A stretch of DNA of 60,549 bases, from contig JAQBYI010000017.1 in NCBI GenBank assembly GCA_027622655.1, forward strand, positions 1 through 60,549, written 5' to 3'. Below the pieces are notes generated by a model that was not told where the DNA came from, ran no database searches, and saw only the letters and a list, made by a program, of their open reading frames with translations. This document shows, piece by piece, positions 12,648 to 48,950 of this stretch (the first letter of the stretch is position 1; each line of letters starts with the position of its first letter). This DNA is from Gemmatimonadota bacterium. Lineage in GTDB: Bacteria; Gemmatimonadota; Gemmatimonadetes; Gemmatimonadales; Gemmatimonadaceae. The position numbers and the translations under genes are program-made.

Positions 12648-14978
12648 CTAAGGAACGACCCCGCCGCGCGGCCCCGCCGGCAAGTGCTCGTGGAGGTAGC
12701 GGGTCAGCAGGTTGTAGAGGTGCGTGCGCGTGTTCACGCCCTCGAAGATCCCGTGCGTCCGGTTCGGGTACTGCATCATCTGGAACGGCTTGTTCGCGGC
12801 AATCAGCTTGTTGATCAGCTGCTCCGTTCCTTGAAAGTGCACGTTGTCGTCCCCGGTCCCGTGCACCACGAGCAGGTCGCCCTTGAGGCCGTTCACGTAG
12901 TTGATCGGTGACGCGTCGAAGTACGCAGCGCTGTCGGTCTGCGGAAGCCCGACATAGCGCTCCTGATAGATCGTATCGTAGTTGTGCACGTCGGGCACCG
13001 GAGCGACCGACATCCCCATCGAGTAGACGTCAGGTGCGCGGAACATCAGGTGCAGCGTGGATGATCCTCCTCCGCTCCATCCCCACACGCCAATACGCGT
13101 GGAATCGACATACGGCCGCCGGGCAATGATGCGCGCTGCAGCGCTCTGTTCGTCAACGCGAAGTCCACCAATTCGGTTGAGCACGGCCTTTCGCCAGTCG
13201 CGTCCCTTCGGGCTCGGCGTGCCGCGCTGGTCTACGCTGGCCACGATGTACCCTTGCTGGGTGAGCATCACGTGCCAGAGCCAATCGGCCCCGCCGTACG
13301 CGTCGCGCACCGTGAGGGCCCACGGCTCGCCGTACACATGAAAGAGAATCGGGTATTTCTTGGTCGGATCGAAATCGGGCGGCTTCATCAGGTAGGCGTC
13401 GAGTTTCTGTCCGACCCCAATGTCTACCTGGAAGAATTCCATCTCACCTTGTTTCAGCTGCGCGATAGAGCGCTTGAGCGCTTCGTTGCCGGCCAGCGTC
13501 CTGGCAACTGTGTGCGATGGCAGCCGCACGAGCTCAGTGACCGACGGCGTTGCCCACGACGAGTAACTGTGAATTGCCCACTTGGCGCCCGGAGCGACAT
13601 CGTACGAGTGATCGCCGCGCGCGCCCGCGGGCGTGAGTCGCTCCGGCGCGCCGGAGCCATCGAGGCGCGTACGCCACAGGAACATCTGAGTACCGTTTTC
13701 CGGTGAGGCGTCAAAGTAGAGCCACCCGCCGGCCATGTCGATCCGCACGATCTTCATCACGTCGTAGTCGCCCTTCGTGACGAGCTGAAGCTCTCCGGCG
13801 CGGTTCACAAGCCAGGCGTGGCGCCAGCCATCGCGCTCGGTCACCCAGATGAAGCGAGAGTTATCGGCGGTCCAGTGAAGTGACGGCCCGGGGCCCCATC
13901 CGGTGTGGTCGTCATAGATGTCAATCCACGCACTGTCGCGATCCACAAGGACCGACCGGACGTTTCCGGTGGACGCCGTGGCAAACCAGAGCGTGTTGAC
14001 GTTCTGGCGGCGATTCAGCTGCTGAATGGCGAGCTCGGTGCTGTTCGCAGCCCAGTCCATTCGGGCGACGTAGTTGTTGCGCGGATCACCTGGCACCTTC
14101 ATCCACGTGGTGGCGCCGCCCGCTGAGCTCACTACGCCAATGCGGGCCGCCGAGTTCGTGGTGCCCGCCTTGGGATACTGGATCGGCGTGACGAACGAGT
14201 ACAGTGAGTCTGTGTTGTTGATCAACAAGAAATCGCGCACGCCCTTGGCGTCGAGCTGCCAGTACGCAATGCGGGAGCCGTCCGGGCTCCACCGAAATCC
14301 GTCGCGCATGCCGAGTTCTTCTTCGTAGACCCAGTCGAACGTGCCGTTGATCGTTGTGTTCGACCCGTCGGTGGTGAGCGCAACGATCGGCCCGCCGCCG
14401 GTGGGTTCCACGTAGATGTTGTGCTCGCGCAGGTAGGCCACTCGGTTGCCATCAGGCGAAAACTTTGCGAATTGCAACGTCGAGGGCTTCGTCTTCGCTG
14501 CGGCGCCACCCAACTGGCGGATTTGCCTGGTGGCGAGGTCGACGACCCAGAAATCACCTCGGGTATTCCCGCGCCAGACACGTGCACTGTTGGTGAACAC
14601 GAGGAGACGCGTGTGATCCGCGCTCCACTCGTAGTCCTCTATGTCGATCGAGACTGTGTCGCCCTGCGGGGTGAGCAGGCCGGCGTCGACTATGACCGTG
14701 GCGTTCCCGGTCGCCGCGTCCACACGCACGAGCTGCGTGCCCCTGCCGCCCGGCACAGCCTCGACCGCGGTGTACGTGCTGTCGTCGAGCCAGCGGGCCT
14801 CGCCAAAGCCCCGGCCGGCGAAGTCTCGGGTGTTGTAGATGCGCTCGACCGTTACCAGGGACGGGTCCGATCGGTCCGGTTGCCGCTGCTGCTGGGCTCC
14901 GGCCGTGGACAGCGATAGGGCGGAGATTGCGGCCACGATAGCAAGCCGCCTGCAACGCTCGGAACGCAATACGGGCAT
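12648..14978 (-). CDS. Secreted dipeptidyl-peptidase IV family serine peptidase (S9B)
   Basis: The start at ATG 14978 is chosen because it opens a signal peptide (RRLAIVAAISALSLSTAGAQ) and gives 776 residues, the usual DPP-IV size. The N-terminal two thirds is a beta-propeller; the C-terminal alpha/beta hydrolase carries the nucleophile in GWSGGG (about residue 634), the Asp in GTGDDNVHF (about 708) and the His in RTHGIF (about 740). EEELGMRDGFRW matches the Glu-Glu motif that binds the substrate N-terminus in DPP-IV. It should release Xaa-Pro dipeptides in the periplasm or outside the cell. Confidence 0.93.
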   Translation of the reverse strand: MPVLRSERCRRLAIVAAISALSLSTAGAQQQRQPDRSDPSLVTVERIYNTRDFAGRGFGEARWLDDSTYTAVEAVPGGRGTQLVRVDAATGNATVIVDAGLLTPQGDTVSIDIEDYEWSADHTRLLVFTNSARVWRGNTRGDFWVVDLATRQIRQLGGAAAKTKPSTLQFAKFSPDGNRVAYLREHNIYVEPTGGGPIVALTTDGSNTTINGTFDWVYEEELGMRDGFRWSPDGSRIAYWQLDAKGVRDFLLINNTDSLYSFVTPIQYPKAGTTNSAARIGVVSSAGGATTWMKVPGDPRNNYVARMDWAANSTELAIQQLNRRQNVNTLWFATASTGNVRSVLVDRDSAWIDIYDDHTGWGPGPSLHWTADNSRFIWVTERDGWRHAWLVNRAGELQLVTKGDYDVMKIVRIDMAGGWLYFDASPENGTQMFLWRTRLDGSGAPERLTPAGARGDHSYDVAPGAKWAIHSYSSWATPSVTELVRLPSHTVARTLAGNEALKRSIAQLKQGEMEFFQVDIGVGQKLDAYLMKPPDFDPTKKYPILFHVYGEPWALTVRDAYGGADWLWHVMLTQQGYIVASVDQRGTPSPKGRDWRKAVLNRIGGLRVDEQSAAARIIARRPYVDSTRIGVWGWSGGGSSTLHLMFRAPDVYSMGMSVAPVPDVHNYDTIYQERYVGLPQTDSAAYFDASPINYVNGLKGDLLVVHGTGDDNVHFQGTEQLINKLIAANKPFQMMQYPNRTHGIFEGVNTRTHLYNLLTRYLHEHLPAGPRGGVVP

Positions 14979-15167
14979 CAGAAAAGCCTCGCCTGACGTG
15001 TAGGAGAGAAATCCACGGAACAGCCGACAGGAACGGCCCATAGGAAGATGCTCCGCGACAAGTCCTAATATGTAGCTCCACCAACCACTGCGGGCGTGCA
15101 GCCCGACCTCAGTTGTACCCGGGCGCAGCGGATTCGCTTGTCGCGCACGAGTCGGCGGCAGCAACAC

Positions 15168-15236
15168 GGTTGTGGACCCGGTTGTGGCCCGGTTGTGGCC
15201 CGGTTGTGGCCCGGTTGTGGCCCGGTTGTGGCCCGG
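15168..15236. repeat. 11-bp tandem repeat array (unit GGTTGTGGCCC)
   Basis: One degenerate 12-base copy (15168-15179) is followed by five perfect 11-base copies from 15180 to 15234. The array lies between the pilin terminator and the start of the DPP-IV gene (minus strand), in the expected promoter/leader region of the latter. Two other intergenic arrays in the window also have an 11-bp unit. Confidence 0.95.
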
Positions 15237-15255
15237 GACGGGTAGTGGCAGTGAA

Positions 15256-15293
15256 TTGAAGAAGGCGCCTCCCACAGGAGGCGCCTTCTTCAA
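15256..15293 (-). terminator. Perfect 17-bp hairpin terminator downstream of the pilin gene
   Basis: Arms 15256-15272 (TTGAAGAAGGCGCCTCC) and 15277-15293 are exact inverted repeats with a four-base loop. Both ends are A/T-rich, so the hairpin could work in both directions, but only the minus-strand pilin gene ends nearby (15323). Confidence 0.8.
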
Positions 15294-16239: not shown

Positions 16240-16767
16240 ATGACAACAGATCCGCGTTTCCCGGCAGGGAAGTTCCACGCCCCCGACTCGTACACCGACG
16301 CATCCCGCGCTGCGGCAGTCGCCGCTATCGCCGCACTCCCGGCCAACGTCCGCAAGGCGGTCTCGGGGCTGTCTGACACGCAGCTCGATACACCATACCG
16401 CGACGGTGGCTGGACGGTGCGGCAGGTAGTTCACCATCTCGCCGACTCCCACGCGAACGCTTACATCCGCATGAAGTTCGCGCGCACGGAAGACAAACCG
16501 ACCGTCAAACCGTACGACGAGGCCGTATGGGCGGAACTCCCCGACGCGAAGACCGGTGACGTCGAGTGGTCACTCTCGATACTCGATGGCATGCACGCCC
16601 GATGGTCGACGCTGCTGCGTTCCTTCTCGGCAGCAGAATTCGCTCGTGTCTGGGTCCATCCGGAGTACGGTGAACGCAATCTCGACTGGATGACCGAGAT
16701 ATACGCGTGGCACTCCCGGCATCATACGGCGCACATCACGGAACTCAGGAAGAAAAAAGACTGGTAG
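16240..16767 (+). CDS. DinB-superfamily putative metal-dependent hydrolase (YfiT-like)
   Basis: The protein has 175 residues. The histidines of VVHHLADSHANAY (about residues 62-70) and of WHSRHHTAHITELR near the C-terminus are the metal-binding positions of the YfiT/DinB four-helix fold. The ATG at 16240 is chosen because an earlier in-frame start would run through the tRNA-Gln gene. YfiT-like proteins bind a divalent metal; the substrate is not established. The stop codon TAG (16765) is the first three bases of an interspersed repeat. Confidence 0.85.
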   Translation: MTTDPRFPAGKFHAPDSYTDASRAAAVAAIAALPANVRKAVSGLSDTQLDTPYRDGGWTVRQVVHHLADSHANAYIRMKFARTEDKPTVKPYDEAVWAELPDAKTGDVEWSLSILDGMHARWSTLLRSFSAAEFARVWVHPEYGERNLDWMTEIYAWHSRHHTAHITELRKKKDW

Positions 16768-16865
16768 ACAGCAGACGGTGTACGGCTCACGGCGGTTGGT
16801 CGTGCGCATAGCCGGCAACCGTCAGCCGTCAACTGTGAGCTGTCCACTCGCCGTTGTCGTTGCCG
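16765..16865 (+). repeat. Interspersed ~95-bp repeat, copy A
   Basis: It begins TAGACAGCAGACGG and ends CCACTCGCCGTTGTCGTTG. It shares order and most bases with copies at 17213-17310 (inverted) and 18299-18392. The repeat is rich in short ACGGC/GCCGT inversions and could fold. It starts exactly at the stop codon of the YfiT-like gene. Confidence 0.8.
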
Positions 16866-16877
16866 TTAAAAGAGAAA

Positions 16878-16904
16878 CGGCCACCCGATATCGTCAGGTG
16901 GCCG
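16878..16904 (-). terminator. Probable terminator downstream of tRNA-Ala
   Basis: CGGCCACC (16878-16885) pairs with GGTGGCCG (16897-16904). On the minus strand it is followed by TTTCTCTTTTAAC. It lies 88 bases past the tRNA 3' end. Confidence 0.6.
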
Positions 16905-16991
16905 CTGGCATCACTTCGTATAAGTGCTGCCACGCTCGCCGGCATTGGAACTCTACGTCCTACCGCTCGGCGGCGGGCAATTCTGTGCGAG

Positions 16992-17064
16992 TGGAGCTGA
17001 GGGGGCTCGAACCCCTGACCTCTCCCGTGCGAGGGGAGCGCTCTCCCAGCTGAGCTACAGCCCC
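16992..17064 (-). tRNA. tRNA-Ala (anticodon CGC)
   Basis: The reverse complement begins GGGGCTGTAGCTCAGCTGGG. The anticodon stem CTCCC/GGGAG encloses the loop CTCGCAC with CGC at 34-36. The acceptor stem has the G3:U70 wobble pair that is the alanine identity element. The T arm is GGGGTTCGAGCCCC, the discriminator is A, and there is no encoded CCA. Confidence 0.96.
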
Positions 17065-17212
17065 AAAAACAAACCGGTACCGTAGCGTGCCTGGTTGCGC
17101 CGCCCGGTCGCACTCCGGACCCCTAACAACAAACCCCGCCGTAATACGCTCGGGCGGGGCCGACGTCACACACCGAGGAAGGTAGCGGCGCGACGCGGCA
17201 AGTCAAGGCCGC

Positions 17213-17310
17213 GAACGGCAACAGCGAGTGGACGGCCGACGGTGAACGGCTGACGGCTTCCGGTTGCGTGCCCGACTGACAGCAGAAAGCCGTCTACCGT
17301 AAGCTGTGCA
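17213..17310 (-). repeat. Interspersed ~95-bp repeat, copy B (inverted)
   Basis: Read on the minus strand it contains CGTCGGCCGTCCACTCGCTGTTGCCGTT, matching the end of copies A and C, and upstream GCAACCGGAAGCCGTCAGCCGTT, matching their middle. It lies in the leader of the dehydratase gene at 17330. Confidence 0.75.
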
Positions 17311-17329
17311 CCTGTCGTAGTAGTTATCA

Positions 17330-18301
17330 GTGCTCAGCGTCCTCCCCACCGCCTCCGCAGTCCGCTCCGCCGCCGAACGAATCCGCGCGCACATCGTGCG
17401 CACAACGCTCGTGCGGTCACCAACTCTGAGTGAGTTTCTTGGCGGCGACGTGTGGCTAAAGTGCGAGTGCGACCAGCACACCGGCTCCTTCAAGCTTCGC
17501 GGAGCCACAAATGTCCTCGCTTTGATGGACGAACCGACACGCGCGCGCGGCGGCGTCGCGTCGAGTGCAGGAAACCACGGTGCTGGAATCGCGGCCGCCG
17601 CTAAGGCGTTCGGAATCGACTGCACCGTCTACGTGCCGAGCGTCGCCCCGGCCGCCAAGCGCGATCGTATTTCGGCGATGGGCGCGACGGTGCACGCCAG
17701 CGCACCACACTACGACGCGGCCGAAGCGCTGGCGAAGGCGCACGCCGAACGCACCGGCGCCACGTTCGTGAATCCCTGCCTCGGACTCGACCTGCTCGCG
17801 GGCCAAGGCACGGTCGCGCTGGAAATCCTCGAGGATCTCCCGACTGTGCGCACAATCATTACGAATGTCGGTGGCGGAGGGCTCTGTGGCGGAATGGGCG
17901 GTTTCCTTTGCGAGGCCGCACCGCAGGTGACTTTGGTCGGCGCACAGAGCGAACACACCGACGCGATGGCCCGCGCACTCGCGTCGAACGCGCCGGCCGA
18001 CGATCCCCACGCGCCAACCATATGTGACGGACTCGCTGGACTGGTGGACGCCGACATGCTGGCACAGGGGCGCGCATCGCTCGCGCGCGTGGCCGTGTCA
18101 CCGGAAGCGGCCGTGGCCCATGCCGTCGCGTACGTATGGATTGAGGAAGGGATCAAGGTTGAGGGTGCGGGCGCCGCCGGCGTCGCGGCAGTGCTCTCAG
18201 GCACGGCGGGCGAAATCGAGTTTCCGCTGGTGATCGTGCTCAGCGGCGGGAACATCGACGACACGCTGCACTCTCAGATCCTGAACGACACCCGCGAGTA
18301 G
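17330..18301 (+). CDS. PLP-dependent threonine/serine dehydratase-like protein
   Basis: This 323-residue fold-type II PLP enzyme has the Schiff-base lysine in TGSFKLRGATN (about residue 55), the SAGNHGAGIA substrate loop near 80, the glycine-rich phosphate-binding loop VGGGGLCGGMGG near 182, and the C-terminal SGGNID motif. It lacks the ACT regulatory domain of biosynthetic IlvA, so it resembles catabolic threonine dehydratase or serine racemase-type proteins that deaminate hydroxy-amino acids to keto acids. Its TAG stop is the start of repeat copy C. A second, divergent homologue lies at 30176-31216. Confidence 0.87.
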   Translation: MLSVLPTASAVRSAAERIRAHIVRTTLVRSPTLSEFLGGDVWLKCECDQHTGSFKLRGATNVLALMDEPTRARGGVASSAGNHGAGIAAAAKAFGIDCTVYVPSVAPAAKRDRISAMGATVHASAPHYDAAEALAKAHAERTGATFVNPCLGLDLLAGQGTVALEILEDLPTVRTIITNVGGGGLCGGMGGFLCEAAPQVTLVGAQSEHTDAMARALASNAPADDPHAPTICDGLAGLVDADMLAQGRASLARVAVSPEAAVAHAVAYVWIEEGIKVEGAGAAGVAAVLSGTAGEIEFPLVIVLSGGNIDDTLHSQILNDTRE

Positions 18302-18392
18302 ACAGCCGACGGCTCACGGCTGTCGGTCGTGCGCACAACCGGCAGCCGTCAACCGTTAGCCGTAGGCCGTCCACTCGCTGTTGTCGTTGTAG
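18299..18392 (+). repeat. Interspersed ~95-bp repeat, copy C
   Basis: It begins TAGACAGCCGACGG at the dehydratase stop codon and runs to GTCCACTCGCTGTTGTCGTTG, ten bases before the RNase Z start. It is in the same orientation as copy A. Confidence 0.8.
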
Positions 18393-18401
18393 TTTTGTCC
18401 C

Positions 18402-19340
18402 GTGTCCCTCTCCATCACTTTCCTCGGAACGTCTGCGTCTCGGCCAACCGTCGAGCGCGGCGTCAGCGCGCTCGCAATCGTACGCGAGGGCGAGACGATG
18501 CTTGTTGATTGCGGCGAGGGCACGCAGCGCCAGATGATGCGGTACGGCGTGTCGTTCGCGATGGGCGACATTCTGTTCACCCACTTTCACACCGATCACT
18601 TCCTCGGTCTGCTCGGCCTCCTGCGCACGCTCACCCTGCAGGACCGCACCGACGTGCTTCGCATCTGGGGCCCGAAGGGACTGCAGCATATGATGAAGCG
18701 CGCCGACGGCCTCGGCGTCGAACGGCTGAGCTTCCCGCTCGAACTTCGCGAGGTCACAGCGGGCGAACCGATTCCGCGGAAGGACTACGCGATCGTGCCG
18801 TTCGCGGTTGATCACCGCGGCGCGCAGTCGGTGGGCTATGCGCTCGTCGAGGAGGAGCGCCGGGGAATCTTCAATCCCGATCTCGCCCGCGAACTCGGCA
18901 TTCCGGAAGGCCCGCTTTGGGGCCGCATTCACAAAGGCGAAGCAGTCACGCTTGACGACGGCCGCGTGATCAAGCCGGAGACTCTCGTGGGGCCCACGCG
19001 ATCGGGCCGCCGACTCGTGGTCACCGGAGATACGCGCCCGTGCCAGGCGACGATTGACGCGTCGATGGGCGCGGACCTCATCGTACACGAAGCAACGTTT
19101 GGCGACGAAGAGGCGCAGCGTGCTTCGGAAACCGGACACTCGACGGCGCGCGAAGCTGCCGAAGTTGCGGCCTCAGCTGGAGCGAAACGGCTCGCGCTTA
19201 CTCATTTCTCCGCGCGCTATTCGCGCGACACCGCGGAACTCGTGCGTCAGGCGCGCGAGCGGTTTCCGGAAACGATCGGCGCGCGCGACGGCCACGAAGT
19301 GGACATTCCGTACGCCGGTACTGAATCAGGCCAGTCGTAA
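18402..19340 (+). CDS. rnz: Ribonuclease Z
   Basis: This metallo-beta-lactamase-fold endonuclease of 312 residues matures tRNA 3' ends. LGTSASRPT at the N-terminus and the zinc motif THFHTDHFLGL (about residues 60-70) are diagnostic of RNase Z. Further ligands are in VTGDTRP and the C-terminal ALTHFSARY. It matters that neither tRNA in this window encodes CCA, since such precursors are RNase Z substrates. The start is GTG at 18402. The last 94 bases overlap, tail to tail, the end of the DUF2203 gene on the other strand. Confidence 0.95.
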   Translation: MSLSITFLGTSASRPTVERGVSALAIVREGETMLVDCGEGTQRQMMRYGVSFAMGDILFTHFHTDHFLGLLGLLRTLTLQDRTDVLRIWGPKGLQHMMKRADGLGVERLSFPLELREVTAGEPIPRKDYAIVPFAVDHRGAQSVGYALVEEERRGIFNPDLARELGIPEGPLWGRIHKGEAVTLDDGRVIKPETLVGPTRSGRRLVVTGDTRPCQATIDASMGADLIVHEATFGDEEAQRASETGHSTAREAAEVAASAGAKRLALTHFSARYSRDTAELVRQARERFPETIGARDGHEVDIPYAGTESGQS

Positions 19341-39940: not shown

Positions 39941-40000
39941 TACTGCGGAACCGCGGAAAACGCGCGGAGAACTGCACGGAGACTCGCAGAGACGGCTACT
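39941..40000. repeat. Interspersed palindromic repeat, family 2
   Basis: The core TACTGCGGAACCGCGGAA is followed by an ACGGAGACTCGCAGAG tail. It is related to sequences at 45382-45408, 48650-48710 and 48847-48960. Here it separates the two divergent metal genes. Confidence 0.7.
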
Positions 40001-48649: not shown

Positions 48650-48710
48650 TTACTGCCTAACCGCGGAAACTGAACGGAGAACTGAACGGAGATTCGCGGA
48701 GACTGCAACT
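48650..48710 (+). repeat. Family 2 repeat copy after the S9 peptidase
   Basis: TACTGCCTAACCGCGGAAACTG and then two tandem ACGGAGAACTGA/ACGGAGATTCGCGGAGACTGC blocks. It is inverted relative to the 52-bp tandem pair at 48847-48950. Confidence 0.75.
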
Positions 48711-48837: not shown

Positions 48838-48846
48838 TTTTTGCGG

Positions 48847-48950
48847 TTGCAGTATCCGCGAATCTCCGTACCCGTCCGTGAATTCCGCGGTTCCGCAGTT
48901 GCAGTATCCGCGAATCTCCGTATCCGTCCGCGGAACTCCGCGGTTTCGCT
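48847..48950 (-). repeat. Two tandem 52-bp copies of family 2 repeat
   Basis: TTGCAGTATCCGCGAATCTC begins both copies (48847 and 48899), which differ at only a few positions. The second is followed by CGGTTTCGCTGTAGTACTGA, another family 2 end. Confidence 0.85.

Follow-up and report, generated by a model that had tools for sequence, protein, structure and literature searches.

Long palindromes with 7-bp-unit cores often sit at gene stop codons and occupy many of the same gene ends in species of a Gemmatimonadaceae genus

Results

Three copies of one repeat around a dehydratase gene

The window, by which we mean the whole 60,549-nt stretch analysed here (contig JAQBYI010000017.1, Gemmatimonadota bacterium assembly GCA_027622655.1), carries a YfiT-like gene, a tRNA-Ala gene and a PLP-dependent dehydratase gene, interspersed with three copies of a repeat, A, B and C (Table 1). 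A and C have the same orientation and B the opposite one, as the first-pass annotation had described: B and C are 84% complementary across 81 nt, and A and B are 73% complementary across 103 nt. The top four ungapped 81-nt matches of the C core on each strand of the window fall on A, B and C only. The annotation had put the repeat at about 95 bp. The repeat itself is real, and its palindromic interior and CCACTCGCYGTTGTCGTT end are present in the copies, but the full unit is longer, with 105 bp in C, 112 bp in B and up to 121 bp in complete copies.

Table 1. Coordinates of the repeat copies and neighbouring genes in the window.
Feature	Position	Strand	Remarks
YfiT-like / DinB_2 gene	16240..16767	+	family search gives DinB_2
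TAG stop of the YfiT-like (DinB_2) gene	16765..16767	+	most likely native
Copy A	16765..16861	+	left 16-bp end missing, arms of 7-bp units, right end intact
Terminal 16-mer of copy A	16846..16861	-	AACGACAACGGCGAGT on the minus strand; end pattern with 0 mismatches
tRNA-Ala (CGC)	16991..17064	-	between copies A and B
Copy B	17214..17325	-	inverted; between tRNA-Ala and the dehydratase start
Terminal 16-mer of copy B	17214-17229		1 mismatch; opposite end diverged
PLP-dependent dehydratase gene	17330..18301	+	family search gives PALP
Copy C	18284..18388	+	complete palindromic element, two ends present
Ends of copy C	18284-18299 and 18373-18388		1 mismatch and exact, respectively
TAG stop of the dehydratase gene	18299..18301	+	within copy C; element end reads NDTRE in the frame of the gene
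Next gene, ribonuclease Z-like (by eye)	18402..19340	+	adjoins the dehydratase gene in 15 relatives

The two TAG codons proposed as the stops of the YfiT-like and dehydratase genes are the real ones. The further claims, that the copies begin at TAG and that the repeat provides both stops, hold only in part. The left end of C, AACGACACCCGCGAG|TAG, fits the family end, starts 5' of the TAG and encodes NDTRE, which places the stop inside the element. Since two element-free relatives (G006 and G012) likewise read ILND at the end of the dehydratase, the first residues of this tail may be native. In copy A the left end is missing. Here, six of the ten YfiT-like proteins shown from relatives stop after the same Trp codon (TGG TAG in three, TGG TGA in two, TGG TAA in one) with no element visible by eye, so that the TAG is most likely the native stop of the gene; in the other four, the last codon is an aligned Phe or Tyr codon. 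Copy B does not lie at a stop.

Two tRNAs alone pass the Rfam gathering threshold in the whole window, and a relaxed search of 16750-18420 added only sub-threshold matches. Beside tRNA-Ala, a non-coding block of about 52 nt (16929-16980, TGCCACGCTCGCCGGCATTGGAACTCTACGTCCTACCGC..CGGCGGCGGGCA) is nearly identical in G004 and close in G002, while its flanking genes share only about 65-75% DNA identity. No Rfam family besides tRNA lies above threshold at this block, which is possibly a conserved RNA or a regulatory element. The window also holds other repeat families of 36-60 nt (ACTGAACGGAGATTCGCGGAGACTGCAACT-like; 39941-40000, 48651-48710 and 48843-48930), unlike the element in sequence, and a tandem 11-bp repeat, CCCGGTTGTGG (15166-15247), upstream of or in the N-terminal extension of the minus-strand ORF at 12648-15293.

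Architecture of the element

Complete copies are palindromes of 105-121 bp, with lengths that often differ in 7-bp steps (e.g. 105, 112, 119 and 121). Each is built from a 16-bp end (AACKACAACNGCGRGT) and an arm of 7-bp units (NNACGGY), followed by the mirror image of both. The family consensus thus reads AACGACAACAGCGAGT edge, NNACGGY units, a GTGCGCAC-like centre, complementary units and mirror edge. By autocorrelation, all six arms of A, B and C have an identity of 0.45-0.64 at lag 7, compared with at most 0.42 at the other lags between 3 and 12, and the units are mostly in register with the 16-bp edge. The ends form terminal inverted repeats of the kind found in MITEs, with 31 matches in the own genome at up to one mismatch against a single match for the reversed pattern. 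At the base of the stem, which measures about 40 nt per arm, GTNG is able to pair with CNAC of the other arm. The hairpins of A, B and C fold better than shuffled sequences (z -2.2 to -2.8). At two other loci (L122 from 1830 and L016 before 127), the edge itself is arrayed beside elements as hexamers or longer units (CAACTG / AACGGCGACTGC), as if the edge could expand in tandem too.

Dispersal through the genome

The own genome is a 3.14-Mb draft assembly of 115 contigs, estimated at 99.67% completeness. Counting the query itself and hits on both strands, copy C finds 53 matches in it at E<=10, of which 27 at E<0.001 are spread over 18 contigs. This dispersal rules out a local duplication confined to the 1.6 kb around the dehydratase gene, and the description of the repeat as interspersed, REP- or MITE-like and tied to gene ends is borne out by dozens of copies on at least 18 contigs, with ends that coincide with stop codons. 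A search of open-licence papers, Gemmatimonad-directed queries included, returned none on this element.

A profile of 14 copies locates 43 places in 38 fetched pieces (180.7 kb, window included), a count that refers to the DNA around matches rather than to the whole genome. Genes were called with a home-made caller based on codon usage. The places are mostly extragenic palindromes in the broad REP-like sense, with two of the 43 inside genes. Two more lack one flank, and the remaining 39 have a called gene on each side, in co-directional (29), convergent (7) or divergent (3) arrangement. The 107 other gene pairs of the same pieces comprise 78 co-directional, 12 convergent and 17 divergent pairs, so the co-directional share is about equal around elements and elsewhere. 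Ordinary co-directional gaps in these pieces have a median of about 16 nt. Because orientation is ordinary and gaps are short, mere nearness to stops is weak evidence, and only exact offsets were used. Genes upstream of elements in the own genome include citrate synthase, GcvT, S7, acyl-CoA dehydrogenase and 3-hydroxyacyl-CoA dehydrogenase. Two genes of the own genome contain an in-frame half-element: a class I tRNA synthetase gene that looks IleRS-like by eye and includes LENDNSELTVDG (C59, L018:1501-1551), and a UvrA gene (C91, L021:1501-1543).

Element ends often coincide with stop codons

Of the element edges, 43 face a stop codon: 30 overlap the codon, another 8 come within 10 nt of it and 5 stand at a greater distance. 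As the profile takes in up to five flanking bases, 17 of the 30 overlaps (1-5 nt) may merely abut. Only 6 of 37 edges facing a start overlap. For a reading at base resolution, we collected 34, 23 and 13 edges from three genomes, each with at most two mismatches and a core-like arm; a few of these 70 edges are probably chance matches or tandem edge arrays. In 42 of them the stop of the upstream gene lies between -30 and +39, with three recurrent arrangements. At -1 (12/42), the gene supplies the T and the element the next two bases of TAA. At -2 (5/42), the stop reads TG|A, with its last base from the element. At +15 (7/42), TAG or TGA stands at bp 16 after GAG, giving protein tails such as NDTRE, NDKNE and NYKGE.

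The 17 of 42 stops at -1 or -2 far exceed a flat expectation (7e-16), also when stops are restricted to -12 to 0 (17/29, 1e-7). With 8 loci at sites shared between genomes dropped, 12 of 34 remain in the full range (9e-11) and, for stops at -12 to 0, 12 of 24 (8e-5). The tabulation that the first-pass annotation had suggested thus came out in favour of a link to stops. Read-through into the element is rare (4/42, at +8, +23, +30 and +39), while random landing in coding ends would be expected to cause it in most cases. Copy A falls outside these offset patterns, with its left edge gone and its TAG most likely native.

Many of the same gene ends carry elements in related species

The dehydratase and the gene after it stand together in 15 relatives; the YfiT-like gene lies further off in some. 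At the dehydratase stop, a palindrome is recognisable by eye in 9 of the 15 (G001, G002, G005, G007, G008, G009, G011, G014 and G016) and absent from 6 (G003, G004, G006, G012, G013 and G015). Protein tails at element-bearing stops include NDTRE, GNYNSG, DNYKSG and GEDKGE; those without an element include ICGL, GNFPAR and RGG, as well as NDSLTN in G012 and NDSPAS in G006. At the YfiT-like stop, G011 and G009 (L066, L067) have a second kind of palindrome made of GGAAGAT units, which indicates that several unit dialects can coexist in one genome.

The stop of the EF-Tu gene (tuf), recognised by eye, could be compared in 16 genomes (G006 and G011 missing). An element is present in this genome and in 8 of 15 relatives; six of these 8 elements start with TAAC. 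The other 7 relatives have no complete element; among them, G002 and G014 retain an ACTCGC-like right edge alone, which suggests that the element was lost there, G008 has a short piece, and G013 and G015 have another hairpin. The trmD/rplS site and that of an acetyltransferase-like gene (named by eye; no Pfam family found) give a similar picture, with gaps. Elements also stand in the tuf-rpsJ and trmD-rplS intervals, with genes named by eye.

From the site table as read by us, 8 of 17 sites in G001 share their gene end with an element of this genome (20 of 21 edge-bearing places fetched). For G010 (12 of 16 places fetched) the number is 5 of 11, or 4 of 10 without tuf, which had been added because it was already known as shared.

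Beyond the genus, the tuf stop was compared in 15 genomes of other genera. In four of them (G018, G019, G022 and G040; perhaps also G037) a palindrome of unlike sequence is seen by eye; the rest have none. In G022 the site reads TG|AACGACAACGGGTG followed by GAATCGT units, with the same kind of end. This GAATCGT type has 25 matches in G022 and none in four other genomes searched. When GTDB was scanned with a pattern of the edge followed by three units, five places came up. Gemmatimonadota MAGs account for two of them; the remaining three, one in a deltaproteobacterial MAG and two in Tychonema, are probably look-alike heptamer repeats. In one Gemmatimonadota MAG (L056:1-200), a heptamer arm is in frame in a glycosyltransferase-like reading frame (GNGKSELTADGSRLTVDGYYVAASRF; named by eye).

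Cores are genome-specific

We compared 32 cores from 7 sites that had been picked for recognisable elements; at one site (C92) two species were read from opposite ends. Cores from different sites of the same genome score a mean of 23.1 in local alignment (n=45), compared with 10.4 for cores at the same site in different species (n=75) and 10.6 for pairs sharing neither (n=361). None of 5000 label permutations reached this difference. Six same-site pairs of near relatives (G005/G007, G009/G011 and G002/G014), with scores of 16-60, were left out. In line with this, a G001 element finds 52 matches in G001 and none in 17 other genomes, and an element of the own genome finds 32 matches here, 5 weak ones in 17 same-genus relatives and 1 in 23 others. 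The unit itself, written xCGGY, has x = A in 108 of 130 cases in the own genome and x = T in 45 of 57 in G001. G010 has 21 G and 20 A, with 10 of 13 arms pure and 3 mixed.

The 16-bp ends, in turn, have a mean identity of 12.36 of 16 positions for same-site pairs, 12.63 for same-genome pairs and 11.94 for neither, and as a whole do not show a clear site-specific signature. One end variant (AAG/AAA at bases 7-9), when present here, was shared at the same site with G001 or G010 in 5 of 6 cases, and in 0 of 5 otherwise; this pattern was spotted post hoc and given no weight. Related species have similar termini at many of the same gene ends, with a core that is spelled genome-specifically.

Searches for an enzyme and for RNA structure

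The first-pass annotation had raised two origins for the repeat, a REP/MITE-like element that targets gene ends, to be checked by looking for a cognate REP-associated transposase, or a conserved 3'-UTR structure. The REP-associated transposase family (Y1_Tnp, RAYT) has no match at E<=0.01 in any of the 18 draft genus genomes, the own one included; the same search is positive in 6 of 14 control genomes. A REP element moved by a RAYT was therefore rejected. By eye, no target duplication is apparent at tuf, the dehydratase or trmD beside element-free relatives.

A covarying 3'-UTR RNA was rejected on two tests. The RNAalifold covariation term is unfavourable (+1.08), with double changes in 3 of 22 predicted pairs. 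When arms were swapped between copies, own arms proved not more complementary than swapped ones (own genome 16.9 vs 19.0, n=14; G001 19.2 vs 19.2, n=8), which speaks against pair-wise compensation. Neither test supports selection acting on individual hairpins.

Discussion

The elements are dispersed genome-wide, hold a fixed position at many stops, share sites between species and have genome-specific cores at these sites. A shared position with a genome-specific core implies either exchange between copies or repeated invasion of the same sites. We favour exchange, given the large number of shared sites and the mixed look of G010. We propose, with a probability of about one half, that the elements are non-autonomous long palindromes that reached fixation at the 3' ends of genes, in many cases right in the stop codon, before the genus diverged into its species, and that their cores have since been homogenised within each genome, a step that we infer. 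Most likely, the hairpins would provoke breaks or stalled synthesis, and repair that switches to another copy as template, or gene conversion from such a copy, could then homogenise the cores genome by genome. The 16-bp ends and 7-bp units may provide the short homology for such exchange, and slippage may add or remove 7-bp units. Gene-end sites would persist because a stop is restored by the element (T|AA, TG|A or GAG TAG/TGA), with hardly any change to the protein. The element may also affect mRNA stability or termination at these stops. Counting against homogenisation, the 16-bp ends as a whole lack a clear site signature, which leaves some probability to repeated insertion at preferred stops, and no copying enzyme was found in the search for Y1_Tnp. 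Gene orientation around elements is also about as elsewhere, and of the 43 copies two are intragenic and three stand between divergent genes. These conclusions rest on sequence data from draft assemblies, a home-made gene caller, sites chosen for recognisability and several calls by eye.

The exact placement in the stop codon could also reflect recurrent insertion, in which a mobile element targets stops or 3' ends, lineages are re-invaded by their own family after loss, and one transposase stands behind the shared ends. In line with this, the 16-bp ends are no more alike at the same site than within a genome, and unlike palindromes occupy the tuf stop in other genera. The shared sites (8/17 and 5/11) would, however, demand a strong preference for the same few genes, and Y1_Tnp is absent from the 18 genus genomes; we regard this reading as doubtful. 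Slightly less likely to us is a selected 3'-UTR structure, a hairpin that protects the upstream mRNA or modulates termination while its sequence drifts freely. It would account for the fixed place beside stops, tuf/rpsJ and trmD/rplS included, and for the better-than-shuffled folding of A, B and C. It also has a precedent in E. coli, where, in the covered parts of the study, REPs up to 15 nt from the stop stall ribosomes (PMC12306157). Own arms that fit no better than swapped ones, the unfavourable covariation and the absence or incompleteness of the element by eye at the dehydratase (6/15) and tuf (7/15) stops argue against it, and a genome-wide common unit is unexpected under independent drift.

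A dedicated enzyme that recognises the 16-bp ends at stops and rewrites the 7-bp-unit core in place is a more speculative idea, which we hold to be unlikely. If it were true, each species would spell the same gene-end palindromes in its own dialect, and G010, with ACGG and GCGG units side by side, would have been caught mid-change. REP or REPIN elements moved by a REP-associated tyrosine transposase are similarly palindromic, mostly extragenic and near gene ends, and GTNG stands at the stem base here too. This origin is improbable given the Y1_Tnp result, a stem far longer than that of tagged REPs, the paired GTNG and a core of 7-bp units. The least credible candidates are attC-like integron recombination sites. 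The ends of attC sites read RYYYAAC/GTTRRRY, and the AAC/GTT edges, the gene-end position and the species-specific families would fit. This identity was rejected since the compared sites are flanked throughout the genus by syntenic chromosomal genes and not by cassettes; in copies read by eye, the bases after the right GTT also do not fit RRRY.

Known systems are compared here as described in the covered parts of the cited papers. The nearest parallel comes from Nostoc, where the P6b stem of the tRNA-Leu(UAA) intron consists of 7-nt motifs of Class I (TDNGATT) or Class II (NNTGAGT). There, one unit class repeatedly replaced the other at the same site with the structure kept, and the origin of the classes is left open (PMC4476775). 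Our element likewise has 7-nt periodicity in both arms and a unit class that is replaced between lineages. Where each Nostoc genotype has one of two classes, it has mostly one unit type per genome. In contrast to P6b, a single site in one intron, it occupies many dispersed gene stops and has common 16-bp ends (PMC4476775).

The REP, BIME and REPIN elements of E. coli and Pseudomonas are also short non-coding palindromes in many copies, part of them near stops (PMC3116915, PMC3733652, PMC12306157), and E. coli REPs close to stops affect translation (PMC12306157). Tagged REPs are defined by an unpaired GTAG/CGTC tag at one end and a stem of 5-13 bp (PMC3733652). The element differs in its length of 105-121 bp, its arms of 7-bp units and the lack of an unpaired GTAG/CGTC tag, its GTNG being paired in a stem of about 40 nt per arm (PMC3116915, PMC3733652); no RAYT was found in the 18 genomes of its genus. 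TAACTGA heptamer repeats of Beggiatoaceae, Cyanobacteria and Bacteroidetes are intergenic 7-mers as well, and some copies overlap upstream stops, with stops in all frames. Unlike the element, they are direct repeats (one inverted case in 170 sets) mostly just upstream of starts, and the covered parts of the paper describe no conserved ends (PMC4679880). With RU elements (PMC2759123) and MITEs the element shares a non-coding nature and inverted repeats. MITEs are non-coding inverted-repeat elements of about 100 bp. Our element departs from them in that no target duplication was noticed at the sites read by eye, no partner transposase is known for it, and its cores differ between species at the same site. 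Earlier repeat work reportedly includes the small dispersed repeats of Elhai and the cyanobacterial STRR.

Short intergenic palindromes have so far mostly been followed in one genome, while here the same gene ends can be traced through a genus. The shared gene ends, similar termini and genome-specific 7-bp cores are invisible from the window alone. A position that is often shared, with a core that is genome-specific, offers a handle on how a repeat family stays uniform without a known transposase. In addition, a mobile-like element lies within stop codons and is able to lengthen proteins at their C-terminus. The genes concerned include those for EF-Tu and ribosomal proteins, where an effect on expression would be measurable.
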